DNA from: a virus
IMG/VR virus record: IMGVR_UViG_3300047300_000907
Coordinates: 1 to 36,090 of that record
Direction: 5' to 3' (one strand)
Length of the DNA stretch: 36,090 nt
The translations under genes and the position numbers were made by a program. Below are positions 17,993 through 31,105 of this stretch, piece by piece. The notes beneath the pieces are model-generated. The model was not told the DNA's origin. It made no database searches and saw only the letters and a list, made by a program, of their open reading frames with translations. Positions within the stretch are counted from its first letter, which is position 1; the number at the start of each line of letters is the position of its first letter.

Positions 17993-18069
17993 GCCCCACA
18001 CCTGAATCGAACAGGTATCCGCTGAAGGAGGAGAGAAGAGGAGGGAAAGCGGATGCACCTAGCTGGGGC
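17993..18069 (-). ncRNA. tRNA-like element with a 24-nt all-pyrimidine loop
   Basis: 77 nt. The acceptor-like stem GCCCCA / TGGGGC (6 bp plus one C-C mismatch position), the perfect T-arm ACCTG-TTCGATT-CAGGT and, directly next to it, a perfect 7-bp stem ATCCGCT / AGCGGAT form a structure like a tRNA in which the anticodon arm is replaced. There is no D-arm and no anticodon loop. The 24-nt loop (18024-18047) is pure C and T on the minus strand and contains CCTCC and CTCCTT, complementary to Shine-Dalgarno sequences. It lies 45 nt after the stop of the ssDNA-binding gene. Alternatives: degraded tRNA or part of an attachment site. Confidence 0.55.
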
Positions 18070-18113
18070 TTGTGGCAGTGATTAAACAGGATGCCAGCCT
18101 GCGCCCATTTAGA

Positions 18114-29656: not shown

Positions 29657-29750
29657 AGCATACCATAAAAGCGCTCCCAAGTCAAGCCCATTTAGGTAAC
29701 AAAATCGTTATCAAAAACCACTTGACAAATGTGAAAAAGTGTGGTAGACT
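29657..29750. promoter_or_regulatory. Divergent promoter pair sharing one central GTTAC box
   Basis: Minus-strand promoter TTGACT (29685-29680), 17 bp, TATGCT (29662-29657). Plus-strand promoter TTGACA (29722-29727), 17 bp, TAGACT (29745-29750). The box GTAACAAAATCGTTAT (29696-29711) is an imperfect palindrome placed exactly 10 bp from each -35, so one bound protein could control both directions. Confidence 0.8.
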
Positions 29751-29798
29751 ATACAAAAAACCTCCAAAAAAAGGCCTCTTTTTTCGGGTATCAAATCT

Positions 29799-29848
29799 AG
29801 CCTAGCAGACTTGCGCGCTTTTGTCAAGCGATGTTACCAAATCGTTAC
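29799..29848 (-). promoter_or_regulatory. Early promoter with upstream GTTAC box, copy A
   Basis: TTGACA (29827-29822), 17 bp, TAGGCT (29804-29799) with TGC before the -10, box GTTACCAAATCGTTAC (plus strand, 29833-29848) 5 bp upstream. It faces the plus-strand promoter at 29722-29750 across 48 bp. The predicted transcript starts with TTTGATACCC, as in promoters 29657 and 30802. Confidence 0.85.
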
Positions 29849-29938
29849 AAAAATATTTTGGGTAGGGTGGATTTTGAACCGTTCTATAAACTGAGCGTAT
29901 CGGACCAAACTCGTTACCTGCTTTTTTGTTATAACAAA

Positions 29939-29967
29939 AGCATAGCATATTTCTTTTTAGTTGTCAA
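29939..29967 (-). promoter_or_regulatory. Early promoter next to a tRNA-like element
   Basis: TTGACA (29967-29962), 17 bp, TATGCT (29944-29939) with TGC before the -10. It starts 2 bp after the 3' end of the tRNA-like element 29970-30015, in place of a GTTAC box. A GTTATAAC palindrome lies at its predicted start site. Confidence 0.8.
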
Positions 29968-29969
29968 GT

Positions 29970-30015
29970 GCCTAGCCAAGAATCGAACTTGGGCGTGTCG
30001 CACCAGCGACTAGGC
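29970..30015 (-). ncRNA. Mini tRNA-like element A
   Basis: 46 nt: 6-bp acceptor-like stem GCCTAG / CTAGGC, a small hairpin TCGC-TGGT-GCGA, five bases, then a perfect T-arm CCAAG-TTCGATT-CTTGG joined directly to the acceptor strand. There is no D- or anticodon arm. It starts 12 nt after the stop of the gene at 30028-30264 and ends 2 nt before the next promoter, so it would be the 3' end of that message. A tRNA remnant or attachment-site core are the alternatives. Confidence 0.55.
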
Positions 30016-30027
30016 GAGGTTTGAACG

Positions 30028-30264
30028 CTACAGCGCCCAAGCCCTTTTCACAATGTTAGCATGCTTGCTAGTAGTTTTAGAATGTTGATAAGCATCAACC
30101 GTTAGCGTGGCACGCTTAGACACATTCGAATAAACCGCTATCACTGTGCCATACGAACAAACCGCATAAAACTCTTCATCAATCCACACACCGCTCAAGT
30201 TGCCAGCATTGAACGGTGCCGCCTTCCAAATAAACGATTCGGCTTCTTTTAGTGTTAGCGCCAT
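30028..30264 (-). CDS. Small hypothetical phage protein
   Basis: 78 residues (MALTLKEAESFIWKAAPFNA ..., VDAYQHSKTTSKHANIVKRA). It has the character of small conserved actinophage proteins of unknown function: a short beta sheet with a basic C-terminus. It starts 1 nt after the stop of the gene before it, with GGAGGGCAACTA upstream. Last gene before a tRNA-like element. Confidence 0.75.
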   Translation of the reverse strand: MALTLKEAESFIWKAAPFNAGNLSGVWIDEEFYAVCSYGTVIAVYSNVSKRATLTVDAYQHSKTTSKHANIVKRAWAL

Positions 30265-30265
30265 G

Positions 30266-30577
30266 TTAGTTGCCCTCCTTCGTTAGTTGCTCAAGAACGC
30301 CAGCGTGAACGCTTGCGATTAGTTTCGCCTTGTGTGCCTTCGGCGCATCCTGCCAAAAGTCAAGGCCAGCCAGACGGTAAGTTGCGTGAACCTTTTCAAG
30401 GGCGTTCCAAGTGCCAAAAATCGCATCCTCTTGAACAGTAGTGTAGTGCCAAAAGTCACCGAACAAGTCTGAGCGGTAAGCACTGCCCTTTAGGTGGCTA
30501 CTCAGAATGTAAGCGGTTGTTCGCGCTTGCTGAGAACGGTCAGGTGTTAGGTCAATAGTGCCGATTACTTTAGCCAT
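30266..30577 (-). CDS. Hypothetical protein
   Basis: 103 residues, mostly helical with several Trp and His residues (FGDFWHYTTVQEDAIFGTWN). Not recognised. AAGGAGATTCGAAAC precedes the ATG. First gene of a two-gene operon behind promoter 30626-30655. Its codon use is more G+C-rich than that of the 23-29 kb genes, which may indicate a different origin for the 30-32 kb genes. Confidence 0.75.
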   Translation of the reverse strand: MAKVIGTIDLTPDRSQQARTTAYILSSHLKGSAYRSDLFGDFWHYTTVQEDAIFGTWNALEKVHATYRLAGLDFWQDAPKAHKAKLIASVHAGVLEQLTKEGN

Positions 30578-30625
30578 GTTTCGAATCTCCTTCTATCCGC
30601 AAGAACCGTTCTTGCTGATGAACCT

Positions 30626-30730
30626 AGTATTGCACACACACACCCAAAAAGTCAAATCCAAACCACACTTTTTTTATAACAAAATCGTTATAAAAAAACA
30701 CTTGACATTTATTCAAAAGTGTGCTATCCT
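30626..30730. promoter_or_regulatory. Second divergent promoter pair with central GTTAC-type box
   Basis: Minus-strand promoter TTGACT (30655-30650), 18 bp, AATACT (30631-30626). Box ATAACAAAATCGTTAT (30676-30691). Plus-strand promoter TTGACA (30702-30707), 17 bp, TATCCT (30725-30730). The box is 10 bp from the plus-strand -35 and 20 bp from the minus-strand -35, so the left half has one extra helical turn compared with 29657-29750. Confidence 0.75.
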
Positions 30731-30801
30731 ATACAAAAAACCTAAAAAAAACATGGGCCTTCGAAAATCTGTTCGAACAACCAAAAAAGGGTATCAAACC
30801 A

Positions 30802-30851
30802 AGCCTAACACAAAAAAAGCTGTCTGTCAAGCCCCGTAACCAAAATGTTAT
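30802..30851 (-). promoter_or_regulatory. Early promoter with upstream GTTAC box, copy B
   Basis: TTGACA (30830-30825), 17 bp, TAGGCT (30807-30802) with TGT before the -10, box GTAACCAAAATGTTAT (plus strand, 30836-30851) 5 bp upstream. It faces the plus-strand promoter at 30702-30730, the same arrangement as copy A. Confidence 0.85.
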
Positions 30852-30939
30852 AAAAAGATTTCAGGCAGGATGGATTTTGAACAGTTGAAAAAAAGGCGTA
30901 TCCGACCAAACCCAAAACCCACTATTTATTTTTACTAGT

Positions 30940-30983
30940 CCCTAGCCTAGCATCGCACTAGGTAAAAGTCTACCACTCTAGGG
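30940..30983 (-). ncRNA. Mini tRNA-like element B
   Basis: 44 nt: acceptor-like stem CCCTAG / CTAGGG (6 bp), 15 nt containing TGGTAGAC, then T-arm CCTAG-TGCGATG-CTAGG joined directly to the acceptor strand. The T-loop departs from TTCGATT at two positions. It begins 17 nt after the stop of the small basic protein at 31001-31105. The same order (gene end, tRNA-like element) is seen for element A, within a duplicated region. Confidence 0.45.
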
Positions 30984-30988
30984 GAATC

Positions 30989-31004
30989 GTTACCGATTCG
31001 TTAC
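30989..31004. promoter_or_regulatory. GTTAC box without a clear promoter
   Basis: GTTACCGATTCGTTAC on the plus strand matches the box consensus perfectly and overlaps the stop codon of the gene at 31001-31105. The position where a -35 would be expected on the minus strand is occupied by the acceptor strand of tRNA-like element B. It may mark a lost promoter or a different use of the box. Confidence 0.6.
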
Positions 31005-31105
31005 TTCGAAGAACCCGCAAACTTTTTACGCTGACGGGCTTTTACCAAATCAATCGTTCGCGCTTTAGCAACCGCGCCACGCTTAGAATCTTTATGCTTA
31101 GCCAT
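31001..31105 (-). CDS. 34-residue basic protein
   Basis: MAKHKDSKRGAVAKARTIDL followed by VKARQRKKFAGSSK: 11 Lys and Arg residues, no Cys, likely nucleic-acid binding. GGAGGTGAAATA precedes the ATG, which overlaps the stop of the membrane protein before it. Last gene of the operon transcribed from 32090-32118. Confidence 0.7.
   Translation of the reverse strand: MAKHKDSKRGAVAKARTIDLVKARQRKKFAGSSK

Follow-up and report, generated by a model that had tools for sequence, protein, structure and literature searches.

On sequence grounds, the two compact elements E1 and E2 belong to an RNA family of cis-encoded, anticodon-less mini-tRNAs that is found in hundreds of places. Both lie on the minus strand of the window, the whole stretch of 36,090 nucleotides that was analysed. 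This 36-kb actinophage-type contig is a virus record and encodes a WhiB protein, ThyX and a DUF3987 protein. Conservation and covariation, taken together, show that elements of the E1/E2 type are real RNA structures kept by selection. We propose, with a probability of about 0.55, that host RNase P would cut at the elements, thereby separating messages and capping the downstream one.

E1 (30015-29970, minus strand) and E2 (30983-30940, minus strand) are 44-46 nt long and tRNA-like. Each is composed of a 6-bp acceptor stem, a D-like hairpin containing GG, a 4-5-nt linker, a 5-bp T stem, a 7-nt T loop, the 3' strand of the acceptor and A-C-T, with no anticodon arm. In E1 (GCCTAG-TCGC.TGGT.GCGA-CACGC-CCAAG.TTCGATT.CTTGG-CTAGGC-A), the acceptor pairs 30015-30010 with 29975-29970. 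The D-like hairpin (TCGC-TGGT-GCGA) occupies 30009-29998, the linker 29997-29993, the T stem 29992-29988 and 29980-29976, and the T loop (TTCGATT) 29987-29981; A73 and C74 are at 29969 and 29968. In E2 (CCCTAG-AGT.GGTAG.ACT-TTTA-CCTAG.TGCGATG.CTAGG-CTAGGG-A), the acceptor pairs 30983-30978 with 30945-30940. It encloses the D-like hairpin at 30977-30967 (AGT-GGTAG-ACT), the linker at 30966-30963, the T stem at 30962-30958 and 30950-30946, and the T loop at 30957-30951 (TGCGATG), and is followed by A73 (30939) and C74 (30938). The T arm of the elements has the 5-bp stem, the 7-nt T-T-C-R-A loop and the G53-C61 pair of a tRNA; E2 and the relative L026 have TGCRA. The earlier note, made from the letters of the window, had seen two T arms joined to 6-bp acceptor-like stems, and both are confirmed on the minus strand at these positions. 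Its spacer of 15-17 nt in place of the D and anticodon arms has the right length but is not featureless, as it forms the short D-like hairpin with its GG loop.

Besides the sequence itself, E1 was assigned from the descriptor and its null, conservation in the relative L003 and the family model; E2 was assigned from its sequence, its complete conservation in L003 and its model score. A strict descriptor (6-bp acceptor, 5-bp T stem and T loop) matched the window twice, at E1 and E2, against 0.085 matches expected in shuffled sequence, and no other equally short-spacered element was found there. E2 scores 41.6 bits with the covariance model, in whose alignment E2 is itself a row. Neither ARAGORN nor Rfam called E1, E2 or the larger element E3 described below, none of which fits the tRNA cloverleaf of RF00005. 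At E1 and E2, Rfam gave nothing at gathering or lax thresholds. The tmRNA model (RF00023) had no match within the window, and none at E1 and E2 even with lax thresholds. Fold z-scores of E1 and E2 (-1.8 and -1.1) are unremarkable on their own and too weak to decide, so that the case for the two elements is built on comparative evidence.

E1 begins 12 nt after the stop codon (30030-30028) of a small gene of 78 amino acids with no Pfam family (30028..30264, minus strand). E2 begins 17 nt after the stop codon (31003-31001) of a 34-aa ORF (MAKHKDSKRGAVAKARTIDLVKARQRKKFAGSSK; 31001..31105, minus strand), whose protein is conserved in L003 (2246..2350, minus strand). The spacing of 12-17 nt past minus-strand stop codons given in the earlier note is thus exact. 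A 6-bp hairpin with a GUAA tetraloop (GAATCG-GTAA-CGATTC; 30984..30999, minus strand) lies between the stop codon and E2 and abuts the acceptor stem; it is identical in L003. On the other side of E1, a sigma70-like promoter (TTGACA-17-TATGCT; 29939..29967, minus strand) starts 2 nt past the acceptor stem, the junction reading AC/TTGACA. The same arrangement, TTGACA-17-TANNNT directly after an element, is found in 7 other phage contigs. Downstream of E1, no same-strand gene is evident for about 700 nt. Blast matches of this region of the window to Lactococcus phages were considered and set aside: they match the AT-rich promoter, not the element. Two paralogous noncoding blocks, 77-84% alike, were also seen at 29697-29910 and 30677-30911 (plus strand). 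They carry plus-strand promoter-like sites and the motifs GGGTATCAAA and GGTGGATTTTGAAC, and parts of them recur in several relatives; they possibly represent another phage RNA or a control region.

L003 is the nearest relative having this region, with a terminase 90% identical. E1 is identical there at 45 of its 46 positions, the sole change being in the D loop, within flanks of about 81% identity. The stretch from the stop codon region through the GUAA hairpin to E2 is 100% identical, within flanks of about 87%. The more distant relatives L009 and L026 keep the same architecture with different stem sequences. A pattern search with acceptor and T loop fixed and the T stem left free returned 30 stretches from viral contigs, most of them with a fully paired T stem of differing sequence and a D hairpin; within the GCCTAG class, the T stem covaries while the acceptor is fixed. 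An unbiased set was obtained by choosing elements by their D-loop and T-loop sequence alone, leaving acceptor and outer T stem free. In its 64 distinct sequences, 95.3% of cells are paired, against 65.1% after shuffling. The covariation score is 0.755, against 0.185 for shuffled sets (none of 500 as high) and at most 0.165 when slid. Descriptor scans depend on the scoring scheme; the covariation and flank results of loop-chosen elements do not. The stem covariation is decisive for an RNA structure.

Among the outcomes that the earlier note had named as speaking against it are paired arms that are not conserved in relatives, eroded full-length tRNAs and attP cores. The paired arms do persist, with compensatory changes. 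Eroded tRNAs do not account for the elements, since their constant form is the one that lacks an anticodon arm; nor are they attP cores, because up to 14 sequence-diverged copies occur in one phage region. Their T arms do resemble those of tRNAs. Even so, a collection of eroded tRNA genes, attP cores or chance hairpins has practically no likelihood, given compensatory changes that maintain the anticodon-less form, many diverged copies per phage and a chance expectation of 0.085. This explanation was rejected on conservation in L003, the descriptor null, covariation and gap placement.

The search gave 634 matches above threshold in 156 loci, a count that is not deduplicated and includes some chance matches. 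Searching cultured phages with concatenated elements gave matches in phages of Mycobacterium, Streptomyces, Corynebacterium, Gordonia and Microbacterium, most of them without an annotated feature. Members include Mycobacterium phages Oaker, Papyrus, Indlulamithi, Cuke and Fowlmouth and Streptomyces phages Joe and Amela; the family also occurs in Gordonia and Corynebacterium phages, metagenomic phages and prophages. The covariance model finds several elements per phage in successive gaps between genes, for example about 6 in the contig L038. In scans of annotated regions, Indlulamithi, Oaker, Joe, Papyrus, Amela, Aleemily, Cuke and Fowlmouth have about 9-14 elements per region against 0-1.4 expected. 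The Microbacterium phage Musetta has no element at this score and one variant, recognized by eye, with a changed T loop. No elements were found in phiC31. No Rfam 15 family covers the cultured-phage elements. In open-access PubMed Central we found no description of the element, and one may exist elsewhere; the family is apparently widespread and undescribed. Among 198 actinobacterial and 99 Bacteroidota genomes, the model R2 matched a single genome in each group, namely the seed genome. The elements are therefore not host genes, and a host-gene origin was rejected.

Apparent family members also occur in two Bacteroidota contigs, at L074:5564-5605 and L078:2724-2765 (both minus strand), the second of which resembles a Mu-like prophage; they suggest a range beyond actinophages. 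In a prophage contig of Amycolatopsis antarctica (L077, about 7380-6880, minus strand), about 5 mini-tRNAs form a tandem array with a spacing of about 120 nt. No genes lie between them, and the array precedes a single gene. Actinocatenispora rupis has a comparable cluster of nine elements.

The elements are placed between genes in a regular manner. In 8 cultured phages, an element is present on the sense strand in 72 of the 88 same-strand gaps of at least 70 nt inside the element-bearing early region, against 1 of 23 gaps outside it; one case of antisense placement was found. The stop codon is typically 6-12 nt upstream of the element, most often 6-8 nt. In 88 of 92 elements, a second hairpin (mean z -2.6) has its start 0-4 nt past N74. 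In this operon setting, the order is A-C, second hairpin, purine-rich Shine-Dalgarno (SD) sequence and the next start about 35-50 nt away. In the promoter setting, observed in the window and seven relatives, the promoter follows the element. Both settings are boundaries between messages. A likeness to tRNA punctuation had been suggested in the earlier note; it fits the finding of one element per intergenic gap in related phages, on the sense strand at message boundaries. That the elements mark 3' ends holds in that they follow stop codons but is incomplete, since in most phages the 5' end of the next message is marked too, by the second hairpin and SD. In several cultured phages, the annotated start of a gene is upstream of or inside a mini-tRNA (L062:20964-21010, L068:4437 and 8046, L069:5846 and 9440). 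The true start of these genes is probably just after the element, and the elements could therefore serve to correct start-codon annotation.

The same placement bears on transcription termination. Terminators without U tracts were reportedly once described for the early region of phage phiC31, and elements acting in that style would be intergenic and past stop codons, as observed, with a promoter directly following as at E1 and in 7 relatives. We consider this improbable. The sequence after the stem has no T run (16% T) and thus lacks the GC stem plus T run of an intrinsic terminator; none is present at the window site either. In the operon setting, the space between the element and the next start is only about 45 nt. 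Hairpin and SD fill this space and leave little room for a promoter, so that termination would silence the next gene. The conservation of the T-loop sequence would also be unexplained. Since phiC31 itself has no elements, its terminators were rejected as family members and provide an analogy only.

A device acting on translation, in which a tRNA mimic 3' of the stop would promote release or re-initiation by the terminating ribosome, is in keeping with the tight stop-to-element spacing and the proximity of the next start. It is nevertheless very unlikely, as E1 is followed by a promoter rather than by an evident gene and the elements have no anticodon-like arm.

The flanks have a fixed signature. 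Among elements chosen by loop sequence, N(-1) is mostly A (68%) and seldom T (6%), so that it rarely pairs with N73, which is a purine in 99%. Position 74 is C in 99% and position 75 is C in 3%. Elements chosen by structure only have the same signature, somewhat weaker. RNase P cleaves model hairpins made of acceptor stem, T stem and T loop at the canonical site, uses the 12-bp stack as a measuring device and pairs the GGU of P15 (U294-G293-G292) with N73-C74-C75 (PMC11143913). U(-1) is the base highlighted in the model pre-tRNA, and non-tRNA substrates include phage M3 RNA, the phage-derived C4 antisense RNA and T4 gene 32 mRNA (PMC11143913). The elements have an 11-12-bp acceptor/T stack, a T loop and unpaired N(-1) and N73. 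Of the RCCA flank that pairs with P15, R73 and C74 are nearly invariant and C75 is avoided; it is the one feature of that review that is absent. The flanks (N-1 rarely U, R73, C74) thus appear to fit RNase P recognition. The proposal of tRNA mimicry at mRNA 3' ends, made in the earlier note, stands to the extent that these are structured RNAs under selection, at gene 3' ends and on the sense strand, with most features that RNase P reads.

We therefore favor, among mechanisms, one in which phages of actinobacteria would use mini-tRNAs after stop codons as transcript punctuation. Host RNase P would bind the T-loop/acceptor stack and the R73-C74 flank and cut 5' of G1, freeing an upstream message with a short tail past its stop codon. 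The downstream message would then have its 5'-phosphate hidden within a stable mini-tRNA at its start, in many cases accompanied by the second hairpin and SD, and this cap may shield it from 5'-end-dependent decay. Where a promoter directly follows the element, as at E1, cutting would trim read-through RNA between two transcription units. Several observations argue against RNase P: C75 is avoided and U(-1) is rare, whereas the canonical substrate has RCCA; the gene-less array of L077 is not explained by cutting between genes; and the fold z-scores of E1 and E2, taken alone, are modest. The T loop and GG could also be conserved for the sake of another elbow-binding protein.

The compact fold might simply block 3' or 5' exonucleases with no tRNA enzyme involved. 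Stable stacked helices, the second hairpin and the position directly past stop codons agree with such an end-stabilizing structure. We regard it as rather unlikely, since a plain hairpin would suffice and the invariant T-loop sequence, the D-loop-like GG (97-100%) and the fixed N(-1), R73 and C74 would have no explanation. Excised mini-tRNAs could instead accumulate as trans-acting decoys for host and defence proteins that bind or cut tRNAs. The many sequence-diverse copies, up to 14 in one phage region, and the L077 array would suit this role, and an anticodon-less mimic would be expected to escape anticodon nucleases. A small-RNA pool, however, would not need strict one-per-gap placement after stops and before SDs, which makes decoys an unlikely role.

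E3 is an RNA class distinct from E1 and E2. The tRNA-like domain (17993..18069, minus strand) has 7-nt acceptor strands, a D-loop-like CTAGGTGC, a third arm (ATCCGC/GCGGAT) that retains a 26-nt pyrimidine loop, and a T arm (ACCTG-TTCGATT-CAGGT), followed by A73 (17992) and C74 (17991). Identified from its sequence, it is conserved in about 25 other, diverse contigs, where it has the same position behind a DUF669 gene and an AATGGGC motif follows the stop codon. An H-type pseudoknot is predicted before the domain (18073..18101, minus strand), pairing CAGG (18101-18098) with CCTG (18090-18087) and TGGCA (18096-18092) with TGCCA (18077-18073). Of 24 relatives, 20 have an equivalent pseudoknot whose stem sequences vary, and no more than 5% of shuffles do as well; each sequence was shuffled separately, column-wise counting having been dropped because the alignment shifts the stems. 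The loop of the third arm (TTTCCCTCCTCTTCTCTCCTCCTTCA; 18023..18048, minus strand) is an anti-SD sequence, conserved as CTCCTCCTTT or CTTCTCCTTT. In several relatives, 8-11 nt of it are complementary to the SD of the following gene, and in some of these relatives loop and SD change together. In the window, the RNA extends over 18116-17991 (minus strand), upstream of the DUF3987 gene, on which it would probably act as a translational switch. The third, larger element of the earlier note is thus real and conserved, but its third arm and pseudoknot set it apart from the family.

More broadly, and only tentatively, at somewhat less than an even chance, these RNAs may constitute a code shared among phages, chiefly of actinobacteria and possibly of Bacteroidota (L074, L078). 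One anticodon-less mini-tRNA per gap would recruit host tRNA enzymes and divide polycistronic RNA into defined, capped units, to which relatives would add E3, with its pseudoknot and anti-SD loop, and tag-less tmRNA domains. If so, a new class of bacterial-virus RNA would be present, unannotated, in well-used laboratory phages, and phages would cut and protect their messages by mimicking the smallest possible tRNA. To our knowledge, tRNA-type cutting has precedents in mitochondria and in a few odd RNAs, whereas no operon-wide system of this sort has been described in bacteria or phages. How the level of each gene is set in early actinophage operons becomes directly testable in Mycobacterium smegmatis and Streptomyces, and mini-tRNAs are natural minimal candidate substrates of RNase P.

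As in mitochondrial tRNA punctuation, tRNA-type structures lie between genes at message boundaries. There, complete functional tRNAs are cut by RNase P and RNase Z; here, no E1/E2-type element has an anticodon arm or tRNA function, and cutting is proposed from sequence. MALAT1 mascRNA, too, is tRNA-like, lies 3' of a transcript and undergoes processing by RNase P and RNase Z, but it is eukaryotic, comes from a single locus and keeps a small arm on the anticodon side. Plant-virus 3' tRNA-like structures, with a pseudoknotted acceptor and aminoacylation at the genome end, likewise represent viral tRNA mimicry at RNA 3' ends, whereas mini-tRNAs have simple stems and occur in DNA phages in many internal copies. 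The tRNA-like domain of tmRNA shares the acceptor, the T arm, a reduced D region and the lack of an anticodon arm. However, tmRNA is alanylated and contains pseudoknots and a tag ORF, while E1/E2-type elements are 40-50 nt long with no insert, and E1 and E2 do not have the G3-U70 alanine identity pair. Elements of 81-83 nt reduced to this domain were observed at L224:3717-3799, L203:3775-3857, L226:3406-3488 and L196:3572-3652. They match the tmRNA model at both of its ends (E 1e-11 to 8e-15, below gathering) and have neither tag ORF nor pseudoknots; G3-U70 is kept in L224 and L196, and the flank is ACAA or ACG, not ACCA. M3, C4 and T4 gene 32 mRNA are phage RNAs recognized by a tRNA enzyme, as we propose here, and the AT1 model hairpin has the same acceptor and T-arm core (PMC11143913). 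Those are single cases, whereas mini-tRNAs form a family of serial elements that lie between genes and share R73-C74 and a conserved D-loop-like GG.
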